Source of the DNA: Pseudomonadota bacterium
Lineage (GTDB): Bacteria > Pseudomonadota > Alphaproteobacteria > Rhodobacterales > Rhodobacteraceae
Assembly: GCA_020161615.1 (NCBI GenBank)
Contig: JAIUPD010000012.1
Span: 1-64,000, forward strand
Reading direction: 5' to 3'
Length of the DNA: 64,000 nt
Shown piece by piece: positions 5,629-62,916 of this stretch. The notes below the pieces were generated by a model. That model saw nothing but the letters and a program-made list of their open reading frames with translations. It was not told the DNA's origin and did no database searches. Position 1 is the stretch's first letter, and the number at the start of each line of letters is the position of its first letter. The translations under genes and the position numbers were made by a program.

Positions 5629-6408
5629 TTACCGGGTCAAGCTGCCGGGATAGGCGGTATCGTATCCCCATGCCTCGAAATCCTTGGCATAAAGGCGCGC
5701 GATCCGGTCCGCGAGATCTCTGGTATAATAGCTGTCCATGCGGTCAGAAGCGCCGGTCCGCTTGCCCTCGTCCGAGGGATAGGCCGCCCTGAGCCGGGCG
5801 GCATCAAACGGCACACCGCTTGCCAGAAGCGCGGCCTCGAGATCGGCGCCCAGCGCTTCGAAGCGGATCACCGCGTCGAAGCTCTGCGGCGGGCCGACAA
5901 TCAGCTTGCTTTGCAGGTCCCAATGACCGTCCCGCGACAGGCCGCCCTGTTCCAGCCAGCCGACGAAATCGGCGAAACCCTCGGGCGTCACCGGGAACTT
6001 CCCGTGGCTGCGCTGATATTTTTCCTCGCGGAACTTGTCGAGGAAGGCCGACAGCACCCGGGAATAGGGGTTGCGTACCACGACGATCCAGCGAAGGGCC
6101 GAGAGCCTGCTCAACTGCGACAGCGGCAGATCAAGCGGCGTCGCCGCTTCCCATTTTGCGATGTCGCGATGCACCGCCTCGCCACCGGCCAGTTCGCGCA
6201 ACAGGATGGTCAAGGTCGTGTTGGCATTCTTCTTCACGCGATTATAGGCCAGCCCCAGCTCGGGGTAGAGGGCGACGCGATGGATCGCCGCCACCGTCAG
6301 CCCCTCGCCGAAGCGGGGTCTCAGCGCCCGAATGACGAAGGGAAGATGCAGCAGGTACATCCCATAGCGGCCGATCCGTCGATGAACGGGGATACGTTCC
6401 TTGCTCAT
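5629..6408 (-). CDS. Sulfotransferase family 2 protein (copy 2)
   Basis: 259 residues, similar to carbohydrate sulfotransferases of the Sulfotransfer_2 type, which use PAPS to sulfate glycans. The 5'-phosphosulfate loop is YNRVKKNANTTL (about residue 55). The 3'-phosphate site is VVVRNPYSRVLSAFLDKF (about 108), with the conserved Arg and Ser. It overlaps the upstream paralogue by four bases (6405-6408), so the pair is translationally coupled and arose by tandem duplication. The acceptor is unknown; the FkbM methyltransferase and waaA nearby suggest a surface glycan. Confidence 0.82.
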   Translation of the reverse strand: MSKERIPVHRRIGRYGMYLLHLPFVIRALRPRFGEGLTVAAIHRVALYPELGLAYNRVKKNANTTLTILLRELAGGEAVHRDIAKWEAATPLDLPLSQLSRLSALRWIVVVRNPYSRVLSAFLDKFREEKYQRSHGKFPVTPEGFADFVGWLEQGGLSRDGHWDLQSKLIVGPPQSFDAVIRFEALGADLEAALLASGVPFDAARLRAAYPSDEGKRTGASDRMDSYYTRDLADRIARLYAKDFEAWGYDTAYPGSLTR

Positions 6409-7193
6409 GGCCGGTCCCCGGGGGCCTGCGCCGGATCGTAGCCCAGCGCGCCGAAATCTTCGGCATAGAGCCGCGCCACCAGCGCCGCGCGCCCGGCTGT
6501 GTAATAGGCGGCAAGCTGCCGGTCGGCGCCCGTCTCCTTGCCGCTGTCGCCGCGATGCTCCGATCCCAGCGCGCCGTCGGGCAGGGCGAGGCCACGGCTG
6601 GCGAAGAAGGTTCGCGCGTCCGATTGCAGGGTTTCGAACCGCAGCACCCCGTCGTAGCTGTCAAGCGGCAGCGCCATCAGCTTGACCTGCCGGTCCCAAT
6701 GCGCATCGCGCGCCAGGCCGCCCTGCTCGAGCCAGTCCAGAAACACGCCGAAACCCTCGGGCGTCAGGGGGAAATCGCCATACTGGCGCCGGTATTCCGC
6801 GAAGCGGAACTTGTCGAGGAAGGCGGACAACACCCGCGAATAGGGATTTCGCACGCTGACGAAAACCGCATAATCGTTCAGCCGTGCGATTTCGGCGGCG
6901 GGCAGGTCGAACAGGTTCGGTGCCGCATCCTTGATGCGCGCCGCCTGACCGCTCTCGCCGGTTTCAAGTTCGTGCAAGACCAGCACCAGGGCCGAATTCG
7001 CGTTCTTCTTCACGCGGTTGAAGGCCAGCCCCAGGCGCGGATAGAAGGCCAGTCGCCGCAGCGCCGCCTTGCGCGCCACGCCATGGCCATAGCGCGCCCT
7101 GACCGCCGTCAGCGCCCGCGGTGCCCGCGCCAGCCCGGCAAGGTTCCGGCCCAGAAGCGCCAGCCCAGTCTGTTCCTTTTCAGCGCCCGCCAT
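6405..7193 (-). CDS. Sulfotransferase family 2 protein (copy 1)
   Basis: About 262 residues and clearly paralogous to the next gene. It shares the FNRVKKNANSAL loop, the SVRNPYSRVLSAFLDKF 3'-phosphate site, and a block around LTPEGFGVFLDWLEQGGLARDAHWD. The start at 7193 (MAGAEKEQ) gives the same N-terminal length as the paralogue. An in-frame ATG 14 codons upstream at 7235 is possible, and no ribosome site decides clearly between them. The gene is divergent from the FkbM methyltransferase. The sulfation substrate is unknown. Confidence 0.8.
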   Translation of the reverse strand: MAGAEKEQTGLALLGRNLAGLARAPRALTAVRARYGHGVARKAALRRLAFYPRLGLAFNRVKKNANSALVLVLHELETGESGQAARIKDAAPNLFDLPAAEIARLNDYAVFVSVRNPYSRVLSAFLDKFRFAEYRRQYGDFPLTPEGFGVFLDWLEQGGLARDAHWDRQVKLMALPLDSYDGVLRFETLQSDARTFFASRGLALPDGALGSEHRGDSGKETGADRQLAAYYTAGRAALVARLYAEDFGALGYDPAQAPGDRP

Positions 7194-9362: not shown

Positions 9363-9414
9363 AGCCGGGGGGCGCTGCCCCCCGGACCCCCCGGGATATT
9401 TGGGGCGCAAAGAA
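9363..9414. repeat. Family A intergenic repeat
   Basis: Lies between caiD and waaA. It has a hairpin GGGGGGC-GCT-GCCCCCC, then CCCGGGATATTTGGGGCGCAAAG as the conserved arm. This copy ends in AAGAAG rather than AAGATG, so it offers no start codon. Confidence 0.78.
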
Positions 9415-9492: not shown

Positions 9493-10287
9493 TTAGCGGC
9501 CCTTCCATACCGGATCGCGTTTCTCGGCAAAGGCGCGCTGGCCCTCATGCAGGTCTTCCGAGCCGTAGAGCCGGTCGACGGTGGCGAACTGGCGCTTCGT
9601 GATCCGGTTCAGCGCGTCCTGAAAGCGCATCGCCTCGGCCTCGCGCACCACCTCCTTGATGGCGGCGAAAACCAGCGGCGGCCCGGATTCGAGGAGCCGG
9701 GCGAGGTCCCAGGCGCGGGGGCGGAGTTCGTCCGGCGCGCAGATCTCCTTGATCAGGCCCCAGTGCTTCGCCTCCTCCACGTCGAACCAGCGGCCGGTCA
9801 GCAGCAGGTCCATGGCGACGTGATAGGGGATGCGCTTGGGCAGCTTGATCGAGGCCGCATCGGCCACCGTGCCCGAGCGGATCTCGGGCAGGGCGAAGCT
9901 GGCGGTTTCCGAGGCGAGGATCAGGTCGCAGCTCAGGGCCAGTTCCAGCCCGCCGCCGCAGCAGATGCCGTTGACGGCGGCGATCACCGGCTTGTTGAGG
10001 TTCGGCAGTTCCTGCAAGCCCCCGAAGCCGCCAACCCCGTAATCCCCGTCGACCGCATCGCCCCCGGCGGCGGCTTTCAGATCCCAGCCGGGGCAGAAGA
10101 ATTTCTCGCCCTCGGCGCGCAGGATCGCCACCCTCAGCCCGTCGTCGTCCCGGAAGGCCTTGAAGACGTCGCCCATGATCCGGCTGGTGGCGAGGTCGAT
10201 GGCATTGGCCCTGGGCCGGTCCAGCGTCACCTCCAGGATACCGCCCTCGCGGCGGGTCTTGATCGGGCCCTCGGTCAGGTTGTTCAT
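9493..10287 (-). CDS. caiD: Carnitinyl-CoA dehydratase (CaiD-type enoyl-CoA hydratase)
   Basis: 264-residue crotonase-fold enzyme, predicted to hydrate crotonobetainyl-CoA to L-carnitinyl-CoA. It matches CaiD along its length: LEVTLDRPRANAID near the start, GWDLKAAAGGD, the oxyanion region NLNKPVIAAVNG, SFALPEIRSG, and the diagnostic C-terminus AFAEKRDPVWKGR. The start overlaps the end of the acyl-CoA synthetase gene by four bases (10284-10287). It is last in the carnitine operon. In E. coli CaiD acts in anaerobic carnitine reduction; the neighbours here suggest an oxidative role. Confidence 0.92.
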   Translation of the reverse strand: MNNLTEGPIKTRREGGILEVTLDRPRANAIDLATSRIMGDVFKAFRDDDGLRVAILRAEGEKFFCPGWDLKAAAGGDAVDGDYGVGGFGGLQELPNLNKPVIAAVNGICCGGGLELALSCDLILASETASFALPEIRSGTVADAASIKLPKRIPYHVAMDLLLTGRWFDVEEAKHWGLIKEICAPDELRPRAWDLARLLESGPPLVFAAIKEVVREAEAMRFQDALNRITKRQFATVDRLYGSEDLHEGQRAFAEKRDPVWKGR

Positions 10288-12302
10288 GTCTGCCTCCAGA
10301 GTATTGCATCCACCGCCACCGCGCCGTTCTCGCGCAGGATCAGCGGGTTGATCTCGATCTCGACGAGCGCGGGATCGCCCGCCATCATCGCCTGCAGGGT
10401 CAGTGCGGCCTCGACCGCGGCGCCGGTGTCGGCCCGGGGGCGGCCCCGCCAGCCGTCGAGCAGCGGCCAGAGCCTGAGGCGGCGCAGCGCCGCCGCGATC
10501 TCGGGCCCCGTCACCGGCGCGACCAGGGTGACCGTATCGGCCAGAAGCTCGGCCGTCACCCCGCCCAGACCGAGGGTCAGCGTCGCGCCATAGACCGGAT
10601 CGCGGCGGAGGCCGATGAGGATTTCGGCCACCCCGTCCCTGACCATCTCTTCGCAGAGATAGCCCTGCGCGCCCGGCATCTCGGCTTCGGCGGCGGGATC
10701 GGTGACGCCCAGACGCACGGCGCGGGCCTCGGTCTTATGGGCGAAGCCCAGGCCCTTCAGCGCGAAGGGCGCGGTCAGGCCGCGCGCATCCAGCGCGGAC
10801 AGGCTTTCGGCCGTCACGCCCCGGGGCACGGCGATTCCCGCTTGGGCCAAGGTTGCCTTCGCCTGTGCCTCGTCGATCAGCGCCGCCGCGCCCGTGGCGC
10901 TCACCGCCCAGGGCCGCCAGCCCTGCCGCCCGGGGGGCCGCTGCGCCGCGACCAGCGCCTCCAGCGCCGTCTCCAGCCCCATCAGCGGCACCACGCCGCG
11001 GGCAATCATGGCGATGGCGCGGGCTTCGTCGAAATTCTCGGGCAGCGAGGCGACCGGGAAAGCGGGCTTGCCGGTCGCCGCCTGCGCCGCCTCGATGGCG
11101 GCGATGGCGGGTTCGAAACTGGCCGGATCGCAGCGGTCGGGACGCGGCGGGTCGATGATGTAGATCCCGGCGTCATAGCCTTCGAGCATGGCGGTGAAGA
11201 CCGCTTCGGTCCTGGGCCCGTCTCCCCAGATGAAAGTGTGGTAATCCAGGGGGTTGGCCAAGGCCACCAGCGGTCCCAGTACGGCGCCAAGTCGCTCTTT
11301 CTGCCTGGCGGTCGGCGGCTCGAAGACCACGCCCGCCCTGGCGCCCAGATCCGCCACCAGCCCCGCTTCGCCGCCCGAACAGGACAGCGAGCAGAGCCGC
11401 GCGCCGATCCCCGGCCCGTGGACATGGAGGATCTTCAGCGTCTCGATCAGCGCACCCAGCGTATCGACCTCGGCCACGCCCGCCTGCCGCAGGAAGGCGC
11501 TCGATGCGGCCCCGCCGCCGGCCAGGGCGGCAGTATGCGAGGCCGCAGCGGCGCGGGAGGCCTCGGTCTTGCCCGATTTCACCACGGCGATGCCCTTGCC
11601 CGCGGCGCGCGCGGCTTCCGCCAGCGCGGCGAAGGCGGGGGCATCGTCGATCCCCTCGATATATAGGCCCAGCGCCGTGACCCGTTCGTCGGCCAGCACG
11701 GCAGAGGCCAGGTCGGCCAGCCCCACCTGCGCCGCATTGCCCAGACAGGCGACATAGGCGACCGGCAGGCCGCGCGCCTGCATGGTCAGATTGATCACGA
11801 TGTTCGAGGATTGGCTGATCAGCGCCACCCCCCGCTCGACCCGCCGCCCGCCGTGCTGATCGGGCCAAAGGAGCGCGCCGTCGAGGTAGTTGATCACCCC
11901 GTAGCAGTTGGGTCCGAGGATGGGCATGGTCCCGGCCGCGGCGACCAGCTCGGCCTGCAGCCCGGCCTCTCCCGCCTCCTCCCAGCCCGAGGCGAAGCAG
12001 ATCGCCCCGCCCGCGCCCATGGCTGCGAGTTCGCGCACCACCTCGACGGTCGCGAAGCGGTTCACGCCGATGAAGACGGCATCCGGCGCATCCGGCAGGT
12101 CGGCCAGGGACCGCCGGCAGGGCACCCCGGCGATTTCGTCGCGGGTCGGATGGACCGGCCAGACCGGCCCGTCAAAGCCCATCTTGCGGCATTGCTCGAT
12201 CACATTCTGCGCCCAACCGGCGCCCAGCACCGCGATGGACCGGGGGCGGAGCAGGCGCGACAGGCGCGAGTCGGGCGAGAGGGTCGCGGGCGCGCTGCCC
12301 AT
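10284..12302 (-). CDS. ADP-forming acyl-CoA synthetase (fused alpha/beta), likely betainyl substrate
   Basis: 672 residues of the acetate:CoA ligase (ADP-forming) / NDP-forming acyl-CoA synthetase family. A CoA-binding Rossmann domain (SIAVLGAGWAQNVIEQCRKMGFDGPVWPVHP, about 20-130) comes first. A succinyl-CoA-ligase-like flavodoxin region follows, with SHTAALAGGG holding the likely phosphohistidine. The C-terminal ATP-grasp domain (about 490-670) contains FALKGLGFAHKTEA and EIEINPLIL. From context it activates gamma-butyrobetaine or carnitine to the CoA ester. Its ATG (12302) and Shine-Dalgarno GGAG are supplied by the family A repeat just upstream, which fills the gap after the acyl-CoA dehydrogenase gene. 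Confidence 0.86.
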   Translation of the reverse strand: MGSAPATLSPDSRLSRLLRPRSIAVLGAGWAQNVIEQCRKMGFDGPVWPVHPTRDEIAGVPCRRSLADLPDAPDAVFIGVNRFATVEVVRELAAMGAGGAICFASGWEEAGEAGLQAELVAAAGTMPILGPNCYGVINYLDGALLWPDQHGGRRVERGVALISQSSNIVINLTMQARGLPVAYVACLGNAAQVGLADLASAVLADERVTALGLYIEGIDDAPAFAALAEAARAAGKGIAVVKSGKTEASRAAAASHTAALAGGGAASSAFLRQAGVAEVDTLGALIETLKILHVHGPGIGARLCSLSCSGGEAGLVADLGARAGVVFEPPTARQKERLGAVLGPLVALANPLDYHTFIWGDGPRTEAVFTAMLEGYDAGIYIIDPPRPDRCDPASFEPAIAAIEAAQAATGKPAFPVASLPENFDEARAIAMIARGVVPLMGLETALEALVAAQRPPGRQGWRPWAVSATGAAALIDEAQAKATLAQAGIAVPRGVTAESLSALDARGLTAPFALKGLGFAHKTEARAVRLGVTDPAAEAEMPGAQGYLCEEMVRDGVAEILIGLRRDPVYGATLTLGLGGVTAELLADTVTLVAPVTGPEIAAALRRLRLWPLLDGWRGRPRADTGAAVEAALTLQAMMAGDPALVEIEINPLILRENGAVAVDAILWRQT

Positions 12303-12386
12303 CTTTGTTCTCCAAATATCCACGGGTTTCCAAAGGGGGCGTGCCCCCTTTGGCGAGGGGGTGCGGGGGGCGAGAAGCCCCCCGGC
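12300..12386 (-). repeat. Family A repeat filling an operon gap and carrying the next start codon
   Basis: Read on the minus strand, it begins 5 bases after the stop of the acyl-CoA dehydrogenase gene with G/C-rich hairpins (GGGGGGCTTC..., then CCAAAGGGGG paired with CCCCCTTTGG). It ends with GGATATTTGGAGAACAAAGATG. The final ATG is the start codon of the acyl-CoA synthetase, and GGAG lies 7 bases before it. Confidence 0.85.
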
Positions 12387-12391
12387 TTGCG

Positions 12392-13555
12392 TCATCCGCC
12401 GACCGAGCGCAGCAATTCCCGGCTGATGATATGTCGCTGGATTTCCGAGGTCCCCTCCCAGATCCGTTCGACCCGCGCGTCGCGCCAGATGCGTTCCAGC
12501 GGCAGCTCGTCCATCAGCCCCATGCCGCCATGGATCTGGATCGCCTCGTCGGCGATCATCGCCAGCGCCTCGGTCGCCTTCAGCTTGGCCATGGCCATGT
12601 CGGCGTCGGTGACCGTGCCTTCGTCGAATTTCCACGCGGCCTCGAAGGTCAGAAGCTCCGCCGCCTTCAGCTCCAGCGCCATATCGGCCAGTTTGAAGGA
12701 CACGCCCTGGAACTTGCCGATCTGCTGGCCGAATTGCTTGCGCTCAGCGGCATAGGCCAGCGCGTGCTCCAGCGCGCGATGGGCCCGGCCGATCGAGGTC
12801 GCGGCCACCTGCAGCCGCGTCGCGCCCAGCCAGTCGTTCGCCACCTCGAAGCCCCGATGCACCTCGCCCAGGATATTCTCGGCCGGCACCCGGCAATCGT
12901 CGAATTCCAGCACCGAATTGGTGTAGCCCCGGTGCGAGACATTGCGATAGCCGTCGCGCACGGTGAAACCCTTGGTGCCCTTGTCGACGAAGAAGGCGGT
13001 GATCCGCTTCTTTCGGCCGCGCGGCGTTTCTTCCTCGCCCGTCGCCATGAACGCGATGGTGAAGCCCGCGACATCGGCATGGCTGATGAAATGCTTGGTG
13101 CCGTTCAGGATCCAGTCGCCGCCCTCCGGCCGGGCCGAGGCACTCATCCCGCGCAGGTCCGACCCCGCGCCGGGCTCGGTCATGGCGAGGCAATCCCAGG
13201 TCTCGCCCCGGATGCAGGGCATGAGATATTTCTCGCGCTGCGCAGGCGTCCCGGCCAGCAGGATGTTCGAGGGCCGCGCCACGCAGGTCCAGTGCAGCGC
13301 GTAATTGGCCCGGCCGAGTTCGCGCTCATAGAGCAGCCAGGACAGGGTATCGAGGCCCGCGCCGCCCAGCTCCTCGGGCATGTTCGCCGCGTAAAGCCCT
13401 GCGTCCATGGCCTTTTTCTGCAACTCTCGGATCAGCTCCATCGGCAGATGGCCGGTGCGTTCGACCAGGGCTTCATGCGGGTAAAGCTCGGCCTCGACAA
13501 AGGCGCGGGTGGTCTCGACGATCATCCGCTGTTCGTCTGACAATCCGAAATGCAT
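12392..13555 (-). CDS. Acyl-CoA dehydrogenase, likely gamma-butyrobetainyl-CoA dehydrogenase
   Basis: 387-residue FAD flavoprotein. The FAD/substrate motif CLAMTEPGAGSDLRGM is at about residue 125, FISHADVAGFTIAF follows, and the C-terminal block is QIHGGMGLMDELPLERIWRDARVERIWEGTSE. A glutamate in the WEGTSEIQR region and upstream acidic residues fit the ACAD family. In this operon it probably oxidises gamma-butyrobetainyl-CoA to crotonobetainyl-CoA, passing electrons to ETF. The start codon overlaps the stop of the carnitine dehydrogenase gene by one base (TGATG). Start MHFGLSDEQ is typical for the family. Confidence 0.88.
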   Translation of the reverse strand: MHFGLSDEQRMIVETTRAFVEAELYPHEALVERTGHLPMELIRELQKKAMDAGLYAANMPEELGGAGLDTLSWLLYERELGRANYALHWTCVARPSNILLAGTPAQREKYLMPCIRGETWDCLAMTEPGAGSDLRGMSASARPEGGDWILNGTKHFISHADVAGFTIAFMATGEEETPRGRKKRITAFFVDKGTKGFTVRDGYRNVSHRGYTNSVLEFDDCRVPAENILGEVHRGFEVANDWLGATRLQVAATSIGRAHRALEHALAYAAERKQFGQQIGKFQGVSFKLADMALELKAAELLTFEAAWKFDEGTVTDADMAMAKLKATEALAMIADEAIQIHGGMGLMDELPLERIWRDARVERIWEGTSEIQRHIISRELLRSVGG

Positions 13556-19983: not shown

Positions 19984-20053
19984 GGGGGGCCGTCTGCCCC
20001 CCTCTTGGCCCAAGGGCCAATTCACCCCCCGAGGATATTTGAAGCGCAAAGAT
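19984..20053 (+). repeat. Family A repeat, plus-oriented copy of a head-to-head pair
   Basis: Holds CCCCCCTCTTGGCCCAAG, a gap, then CCCCCCGAGGATATTTGAAGCGCAAAGATG. The ATG opens a 79-codon plus-strand frame that reads backwards through the regulator gene and has no similarity to anything. The partner copy begins 30 bases later in opposite orientation. Confidence 0.8.
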
Positions 20054-20082
20054 GAAGGTTAAGAGGGCGTTACCCCGCCTTA

Positions 20083-20165
20083 TTTGCGCTTCAAATATCC
20101 TCGAGGGTTTCTCAAGGGGGTGGAAAACCCCCTTGAGCGGGGGGTGCGGGGGGCTGGCCCCCCGC
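20083..20165 (-). repeat. Family A repeat, minus-oriented copy of a head-to-head pair
   Basis: TTTGCGCTTCAAATATCCTCGAGGG, then the hairpin TCAAGGGGGT with its complement ACCCCCTTGA, then GGGGGGCTGGCCCCCC. It sits 18 bases after the stop of the RutR-like gene and could form terminator-like stems, though no U-tract follows. Confidence 0.8.
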
Positions 20166-24410: not shown

Positions 24411-24496
24411 CGGGGGGCCAGCCCCCCGCACCCCCCGCTCAAGGGGGTTTTCCACCCCCTTGAGAAACCCCCGAGGATATTTCTGGAACAAAGATG
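24411..24496 (+). repeat. Family A repeat carrying a start codon
   Basis: After the amidohydrolase stop, CCCCCCGC and AAGGGGGTTTTCC pair with GGAAAACCCCCTT-like partners in inverted repeats. The arm then reads CCCCCGAGGATATTTC and TGGAACAAAGATG. The ATG at 24494 opens the next reading frame, with GGA 6 bases before it. Same layout as at 12300-12386, on the opposite strand. Confidence 0.82.
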
Positions 24497-36452: not shown

Positions 36453-36506
36453 CCCGGGGGTTTCACACCCCCGGACCCCCGTGGGATATTTGAGGCGCAA
36501 AGAAGG
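36453..36506. repeat. Family A intergenic repeat
   Basis: CCCGGGGGTTT-CAC-ACCCCCGG hairpin followed by CCCGTGGGATATTTGAGGCGC and AAAGAAG. Lies between nrdJ and the convergent GST gene; no start codon in the arm. Confidence 0.8.
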
Positions 36507-37420: not shown

Positions 37421-37516
37421 GCATCTTTGCGCCGGAAATATCCTCGGGGGTTTCCAAAGGGGGCCCGAGGGTCCCCTTTGGCGAGGGGGCGCGGGGGGCG
37501 AGCAGCCCCCCGCTTC
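37421..37516. repeat. Family A intergenic repeat
   Basis: CATCTTTGCGCCGGAAATATCC and TCGGGGG, then the hairpin CCAAAGGGGG...CCCCTTTGG, then GGGGGGCG-AGCA-GCCCCCC. On the minus strand its ATG leads only to a 14-codon frame, so no gene uses it. Confidence 0.82.
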
Positions 37517-45074: not shown

Positions 45075-45116
45075 GGGCGCGGTACGTGGGCTTGACGCTG
45101 GGCCGGGAGAGTCGGC

Positions 45117-45139
45117 GTAGGGTGGGATTTCATCCCACC
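45117..45139. repeat. Family B palindromic repeat, copy 2
   Basis: GTAG followed by GGTGGGATTTCATCCCACC. Same unit as copy 1 in the inverted orientation. Confidence 0.88.
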
Positions 45140-45152
45140 GTGTAGCGAGTGT

Positions 45153-45175
45153 GTAGGGTGGGATTTCATCCCACC
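45153..45175. repeat. Family B palindromic repeat, copy 3
   Basis: Identical to copy 2 over GTAG plus GGTGGGATTTCATCCCACC, 13 bases after it; it lies just past the hom stop codon. Confidence 0.88.
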
Positions 45176-45188
45176 CACGAAAGGCCGC

Positions 45189-59830: not shown

Positions 59831-59880
59831 GGGGGGGGCCAGCCCCCCGGACCCCCCGGGATATTTGAGGCGCAAAGAAG
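59831..59880. repeat. Family A intergenic repeat
   Basis: GGGGGG-CCAG-CCCCCC hairpin, then ACCCCCCGGGATATTTGAGG and CGCAAAGAAG. About 120 bases upstream of lptF. Confidence 0.8.
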
Positions 59881-60642: not shown

Positions 60643-60690
60643 CATCTTTGTTCTCCAAATATCCCGGGGGTCCGGGGGCTGGCCCCCGGT
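60643..60690. repeat. Family A intergenic repeat
   Basis: CATCTTTGTTCTCCAAATAT and CCCGGGGG, then CCGGGGG-CTGG-CCCCCGG hairpin. Its arm is identical to the IS1595 target at window start. The minus-strand ATG opens a 43-codon frame with no similarity. Confidence 0.8.
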
Positions 60691-62847: not shown

Positions 62848-62901
62848 GGTGGGATGAAATCCCACCCTACGGGCGGGTGTAGGGTGGGATTTCATCCCAC
62901 C
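62848..62901. repeat. Inverted pair of family B palindromes
   Basis: Two units (62848-62870 and 62879-62901) in opposite orientation with 8 bases between. Each is itself palindromic, and the two together form a 23-bp inverted repeat. It lies between the converging holC and FadB/J-like genes and might end transcription from both sides. Confidence 0.88.
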
Positions 62902-62916
62902 TAGCGACGGCCCCCC

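Follow-up and report, generated by a model that had tools for sequence, protein, structure and literature searches.

A REP-like repeat of gene 3′ ends as the predicted ribosome site and start codon of an acyl-CoA synthetase gene in Rhodobacteraceae

Introduction

Repetitive extragenic palindromic (REP) sequences and bacterial interspersed mosaic elements (BIMEs) of enterobacteria and pseudomonads are short extragenic palindromic units, present in hundreds of copies, that lie mostly at the 3′ ends of genes and often stand in opposed pairs. A usual companion is a RAYT transposase gene. Here, we describe a repeat family of a similar kind from a 64,000-nt stretch of a Rhodobacteraceae genome (GenBank assembly GCA_020161615.1, contig JAIUPD010000012.1, positions 1 to 64,000; hereafter, the window). 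Between the genes for an acyl-CoA dehydrogenase (acd) and an acyl-CoA synthetase (acs), one copy of this repeat, hereafter the arm, very probably provides the ribosome site and the start codon of the synthetase.

The nearest published parallel that we have seen is Br-REP1 of Bradyrhizobium, an alphaproteobacterial REP of 3′ untranslated regions that lies between convergent genes and has a copy number (about 200) similar to that of the arm; Br-REP1 and Br-REP2 also occur in larger forms with flanking palindromes, the copy numbers of these forms varying strongly between species (PMC5082802, in excerpt). The two repeats are nevertheless unrelated in sequence, the Br-REP1 consensus CCGGAATCTCGAGATTCCGG having 0 matches in the window at ≤3 mismatches, and an assignment of the arm to Br-REP1 was rejected on this ground. 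The phrase 'start codon' is absent from the main text of PMC5082802. Among other repeat families, the creation of gene loci by fusion of the reading frames of miniature inverted-repeat transposable elements (MITEs) has been described (PMC2229807, in excerpt). A search of the texts of that paper, PMC2759123 and PMC10969869, which concern RU/ERIC repeats and MITEs, found none of the terms start codon, ribosome binding and Shine-Dalgarno; the present repeat differs from these in that it would supply the initiation signals of a conserved enzyme. A survey of spaced motifs (PMC5217627) makes no mention of Rhodobacter or Paracoccus. Within the literature searched, which left out most subscription papers, the arm motif strings did not occur, and none of the search results and texts covered described a REP-type repeat as the source of a start codon.

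REP-kind repeats are normally discussed for their roles at 3′ ends, and here a comparison of species indicates that one of them has become the ribosome site and start codon of conserved enzymes. The free copies of the repeat form a built-in control, in which the Shine-Dalgarno bases vary freely, while they are largely held in the copies at gene starts. Their link to a covarying two-armed element offers an origin for such repeats that can be tested. Matched in most sampled genera of the bacterial family, that element suggests a structured RNA, for which the Rfam searches carried out gave no fitting family.

The arm at the start of the synthetase gene

The gap between acd and acs (12303-12391, minus strand) is filled by two GC hairpins followed by the arm GGATATTTGGAGAACAAAG and then an ATG (Table 1); the acd stop codon, TGA, lies at 12394-12392. 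A preliminary description of this DNA had taken the whole gap to be one repeat, whose arm ends in GGAG, seven bases and an ATG that starts the synthetase. Both statements hold: the ATG is the acs start codon according to the window sequence and our open reading frame (ORF) caller, and it is in frame in all five genomes with a single arm at this place. A domain scan bore out the identities that had been given to the two gene products and placed the synthetase in the NDP-forming type. Counted from the arm's ATG, by an ORF caller without a ribosome-site term, acs has 672 aa. The next in-frame start codon is a GTG at codon 24 (counted from 0), which falls within the CoA-binding domain that begins at residue 21. 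Initiation at the arm's ATG is put forward as a prediction from sequence. The arm's own mini-hairpin, at −1 kcal/mol, is too weak to serve as a basis for interpretation and was dropped.

Table 1. Positions of the acd-acs junction and of other arm copies in the window
Feature	Position	Strand	Basis or remark
acs, NDP-forming acyl-CoA synthetase, predicted to start at the arm's ATG	10284-12302	−	ORF call, domains, species comparison
Repeat arm GGATATTTGGAGAACAAAGATG: GGAG 12313-12310, 7-nt spacer, ATG 12302-12300	12300-12321	−	Sequence; arm at the same place in 5 genomes
Hairpin 2, CCAAAGGGGG-loop-CCCCCTTTGG, adjoining the arm	12330-12353	−	Sequence, folding
Hairpin 1, GC-rich, 7 pairs and a five-base loop, after the acd stop codon	12365-12383	−	Sequence, folding
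acd, acyl-CoA dehydrogenase, with the start given by the caller (the frame can be extended)	12392-13525	−	ORF call, domains
Two facing arms 48 nt apart between convergent genes	20033-20100	+ (20033-20052), − (20081-20100)	
Arm whose ATG opens a 107-aa frame	24475-24496	+	Gene doubtful; Pfam gave no match
Arm with ATG 68 nt ahead of a codirectional gene	37422-37443	−	Not the start of that gene
Arm with core identical to that of the acs arm	60643-60664	−	No credible gene start there
Arm with AAG in place of ATG	9394-9413	+	
Arm with AAG in place of ATG	36484-36503	+	
Arm with AAG in place of ATG	59859-59878	+	

Comparison of species at acs

A search for acs (E 1e-100) found the gene in 18 of the 40 genomes searched, and the gap before it was read by eye in the relatives. 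In five Pararhodobacter-like genomes (G000, G010, G016, G006 and G009), a single arm stands directly before acs with its ATG in frame. Relatives in the genus have an apparent acs start further inside (MRDLSRLLRP), and the codon homologous to it is GAC or AAT in all five arm-start genomes. The common LSRL stretch lies 39 nt from the arm's ATG in four of the five genomes and 54 nt from it in the remaining one. The arm start adds about 10 residues (15 in one species) to the protein expected from the relatives' apparent start.

Elsewhere, the same gap holds other arrangements. Six genomes (G017, G014, G013, G012, G002 and G004) carry a full two-armed element before acs, which starts behind it; G001 has only the right half of this element, at a contig end, and G020, of another genus, has the element in the other orientation. 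There is almost no acd-acs gap in G008 and in two other genera (G018, G022). In G015 and G021, no neighbouring acd was found for acs, and no element was seen.

How often an arm is a gene start

The ATG-bearing pattern GATATTTGNNGNNCAAAGATG has 50 copies in the genome, and the surroundings of all of them were read. By our own gene calls and homology, six copies are gene starts and 44 are not; 35 of the 50 face the 3′ end of a convergent gene. The six genes are acs and five that we take, from their sequences, to be FAH-, PrpF-, threonine dehydratase-, QueG- and MttB-like; the start of the PrpF-like gene was set by its homologs, the caller having placed it 39 nt further inside. One further gene, presumably RibD-like and outside the GATATTTGNNGNNCAAAGATG pattern, also begins at an arm. 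This distribution does not support the expectation of the preliminary description that the repeat is enriched at operon starts, and a role as a general operon-start cassette was rejected because so few of the ATG copies are starts.

Coincidence of arms and starts is still more frequent than expected by position. Among ATG arms between codirectional genes with a downstream gene of >100 aa, 6/16 coincide with a start, as against 0.12 expected under a null that assumes arms anywhere within gaps. That null is generous because the gene caller prefers ATG; one of the six, at 24475, is itself doubtful, and the PrpF-like arm was counted with the start given by the homologs of that gene. In this restricted form, the idea of a translation-initiation cassette is supported for acs and as an event that recurs at other genes.

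The arms at gene starts also differ from the rest in sequence. GGAG occupies the Shine-Dalgarno place in 5/6 start arms and in 7/44 others (p = 0.002), or in 5/35 of those facing a convergent gene (p = 0.0018). This test, on which we rely, requires a gene of >100 aa and the 50-site pattern, and so leaves out two arms without GGAG, namely 24475 (CTGG) and the RibD-like arm (AGAG). A looser count gives 6/8 against 10/57 (p = 0.002), and includes window position 60645 (a 17-codon 'gene'), 24475 and one site of the second species. Further, between G000 and G010 the positions N1-3, where GGA lies, are the same in 3/4 start arms and in only 1/11 free arms (p = 0.033, hand-counted pairs). Together with the GGAG count, this constancy is the best evidence for selection on the ribosome site in start arms.

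Arm starts were then sought in other genomes. The FAH-like gene begins at an arm in 4/10 genomes matched, all four with GGAG, and the PrpF-like gene in 4/9, three with GGAG and one with GAGG. In the other genomes, the arm is absent at the FAH-, PrpF- and RibD-like genes or lies away from the start.

These data bear on the simplest alternative, in which the in-frame position of an ordinary 3′-end repeat ahead of acs is a coincidence, the ATG of that repeat is added by the caller, and acs really starts inside the gene. Most ATG copies are indeed not starts, the caller does prefer ATG, and one can reason that chance alone would put roughly one upstream ATG in three in frame. Set against this are the lack of any start codon between the arm's ATG and codon 24 in the window, the loss of the relatives' start codon in 5/5 genomes, the arm-start fusions found in four species each at two other genes, and the far greater retention of GGAG in start arms than in free ones. 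We regard such a coincidence as highly improbable.

A second alternative would make the start arms a regulon, in which a protein or a reverse-arm RNA binds the ribosome site of several genes at once. Near-identical arms do stand at the starts of unlike genes, transcripts of facing pairs or long forms would carry the complement of the arm, and arm cores differ between lineages within the genus. Against this, no regulator was identified, the start genes have no evident common pathway, and selection on GGAG and ATG alone accounts for the conservation observed. A shared control site appears improbable.

We consider it very likely that the acd-acs gap holds a single arm and the GC hairpins of a REP-like 3′-end repeat family, and that acs has adopted the arm's GGAG-7-ATG as its ribosome site and start codon, the start apparently used by genus relatives being gone. 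Members of the family usually stand directly behind stop codons, and between convergent genes they are often arranged as facing pairs. At this junction, the hairpins probably uncouple translation of acs from that of acd, so that acs would be initiated independently from the arm instead of by coupling, and they probably also protect the 3′ end of the acd mRNA and stabilise the upstream message. Of the two-armed element that occupies this gap in related species and genera, most likely the left arm alone remains in the window's clade.

Several observations weigh against this account. G009 and G016 have TTG codons in frame close to the start of acs, so an alternative start is possible in these two. 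The RibD-like gene has a start arm in 2/18 genomes, with AGAG and GAAG in place of GGAG. Starts other than those of acs and the FAH-, PrpF- and RibD-like genes come from our own ORF caller only. A Shine-Dalgarno match is by itself unremarkable, since 725 of 1483 called genes have GGAG, GAGG or AGGA 4-16 nt upstream. The folded stretch at the acd-acs locus is only mildly better than shuffles (z −1.84). Finally, derivation of the half element from the long form by deletion is inferred from its position.

Beside the start arms, two lineage variants of the arm at the RibD-like gene (L176 and L177, in G007 and G004) have ATGAAGGGG as their last bases, shortly ahead of the ATG of that gene. This tail of the arm may serve as a ribosome site in a second way.

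A repeat of gene 3′ ends

The arm is abundant. The pattern GGATATTTN6CAAAGA has 231 sites (≤1 mismatch) in the 4.87-Mb genome and 0 when reversed, and the window holds 9 matches (≤2 mismatches) against 0.03 expected. Within the genus, abundance is uneven, with many copies in some genomes and few or none in others; arm-bearing named relatives include Pararhodobacter aggregans and P. marinus. Cores differ among lineages of the genus, and a variant core is present in numbers in two of the genomes with few or no copies of the arm, G007 and G011. Six plasmid records yielded no useful copy, none exceeding 51% of the query.

Placement was surveyed in 1.66 Mb of the window's genome at ≤2 mismatches, with our own gene calls, trained jointly with a second species. 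Of 99 sites, 98 are intergenic and one lies inside a gene. Of the 98, 53 lie between two gene 3′ ends and 5 between two gene starts. In 25, the hairpin side is next to a 3′ end and a gene start follows; 15 are placed the other way round. In total, the hairpin side faces a gene 3′ end in 78 of the 98. Among gaps of ≥100 nt, an arm occurs in 36/89 convergent, 30/287 codirectional and 4/200 divergent ones. In 0.4 Mb of the second species, all 31 arm sites are intergenic, and arms occupy 10/22 convergent, 9/68 codirectional and 0/48 divergent gaps. Arms within 300 nt of each other are always in facing orientation; 42 of the 98 form 21 such pairs, 17 of them at a spacing of 48, and 56 are single. 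Because arms favour 3′ ends and only 6/50 ATG copies are starts, the arm is a REP-like 3′-end repeat, now and then exapted as a start site. From sequence comparison, then, gene 3′ ends emerge as the main niche of the family, with the arm as predicted start of acs and with start arms that mostly keep GGAG.

Stretches between stop codon and arm fold better than shuffles, with a median z of −3.2 (n = 72) compared with −0.8 for control 3′ flanks (n = 72), and the hairpins are followed by AU-rich ATATTT in a genome of 68% GC. Stable hairpins after stop codons, mostly between convergent genes, and the AU-rich tract would both suit an intrinsic terminator or RNA-processing site, with acs expressed from elsewhere. 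For the acd-acs locus, however, a consensus scan of 12200-12500 found neither a sigma-70-like promoter nor, on the minus strand, any site resembling a terminator, and acs overlaps the next gene by 4 nt, as in an operon. An intrinsic terminator was rejected here, no GC stem directly followed by a T run having been found on the minus strand. A processing role would be compatible with a role as start site, not opposed to it. As a competing explanation, a terminator or processing site is rather unlikely.

The family shares with REP and BIME a palindromic unit in many copies, a location at 3′ ends that is rare between divergent genes, pairs in opposite orientation, and the insertion of an insertion sequence (IS) into one copy. 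It differs in its core, in the built-in GGAG-7-ATG and in the two upstream GC hairpins. Targeting of REP elements by ISs has been described (PMC1525189, in excerpt). In the window, the IS lies at 332-1090, has inverted ends and encodes a transposase (DDE_Tnp_IS1595, 379-1086); it sits inside a copy of the arm, whose bases TTCTCCAA flank it on both sides (324-331 and 1091-1098).

The preliminary description had called the repeat mobile or spreading, for which the comparisons gave no support. Of 20 second-species sites, 9 had no syntenic partner in the available sequence, and 10 of the other 11 hold the arm in both G000 and G010 (≤3 mismatches); the repeats are therefore not recent at this scale. 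RAYT-driven mobility was rejected, as the window's genome has no match to the RAYT transposase domain (PF01797) at E 0.001, a search positive in 5/14 control genomes. Overall, the earlier interpretation is partly supported.

Some facing pairs have the spacer TTAA-N7-TTAA (G000 C1:80920-80987 and C3:332433-332500), and other pairs lack it. We take this spacer to resemble a CtrA site, though it is located between convergent genes.

The larger two-armed element

The arm appears to be the end piece of an element of about 160 nt. In this element, GGATATTT and three free bases precede an arm and a central hairpin CGGTACAGGCnGGGAnGCCGATGACCG; next come a near-copy of that arm, a GC hairpin and the complementary arm, followed by three more free bases and AAATATCC. 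The arm positions N1-3, between GGATATTT and the rest of the arm, vary among copies, and do so also in the long form across genera; the sequence on both sides of them is nearly fixed, and no reason for the variation was found. Loci L081, L084, L086, L087, L090, L091, L093, L196 and L213-L243 hold the element, which has a GGGA-loop hairpin.

Pairing of the two outer arms, scored on 34 copies, is kept in 99.2% of cells, and 9/11 pairs show double changes. In the alternative helix, which joins the 3′ arm to the internal copy, 98.9% of cells pair, again with double changes at 9/11. Control structures slid by 1-3 columns pair in 39-56%. Across 28 loci, the 3′ arm matches its own 5′ arm at 8.6/9 positions and those of other loci at 5.8; for the internal copies, the corresponding values are 7.8/9 and 5.6 (L237 and L243 were dropped by the pattern from 30 loci, and L239 is out of register). 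The central hairpin covaries on its own, one inner pair occurring in three Watson-Crick forms. By hand count in the long form, two free bases of the central inner stem pair in 40/40 of the copies listed (39 Watson-Crick, 1 G-U), and because they change together, a conserved small peptide in this centre was rejected.

An element model (R1; 10 training copies, 7 from acd-acs) matches 114/149 sampled genomes of the family. Hits on the reverse strand of true copies score 30-45 bits, so weak hits may be plain palindromes. Among the 30 loci fetched, the best of 30 genomes, the element lies between acd and acs orthologs at 15 (L215, L217-L221, L225, L226, L228, L229, L232-L235 and L237), across genera and in either orientation, and at 14/28 without two training loci; these best-scoring loci are biased to that gap because most training copies came from it. 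Gene neighbours, scanned at 13 of the other 15 loci, are varied. Rfam gave nothing above the gathering cut-off at 13 loci with long forms. In L226, one hit below threshold, to the plant microRNA family MIR1507 (36.4 bits; cut-off 73), overlaps the element and is taken as a chance match to a long palindrome.

Both helices use one strand and are therefore mutually exclusive, so that the design would be bistable if the element acts as RNA. We tentatively raise the possibility, on balance a doubtful one, that a bistable RNA common to the whole family originally resided in the acd-acs gap, its 3′ arm pairing with either the 5′ arm or the internal near-copy and all three segments changing together across about 30 genera, and that this RNA acts in cis as a switch on the gene behind it. 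In Pararhodobacter, its ends would have multiplied into 3′-end repeats, and at acs the switch would have been reduced to one arm that is now the gene's start. Because the arms are inverted and direct repeats, copying at the DNA level could also keep them alike.

Other features of the window

Among the minus-strand genes scanned near acs are those for an enoyl-CoA hydratase, a 3-hydroxyacyl-CoA dehydrogenase fused to a thioesterase, and a BKACE enzyme; we presume that this gene set resembles catabolism of the gamma-butyrobetaine/carnitine type. An Rfam scan of the window gave only a tRNA above the gathering cut-off. A separate repeat, GTAGGGTGGGATTTCATCCCACC, forms a tandem pair at 45115-45186 and has a single copy at 62877-62912. 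Two 236-nt stretches in neighbouring called genes (5851-6086 and 6627-6862), 776 nt apart and 74% alike, are probably paralogs.

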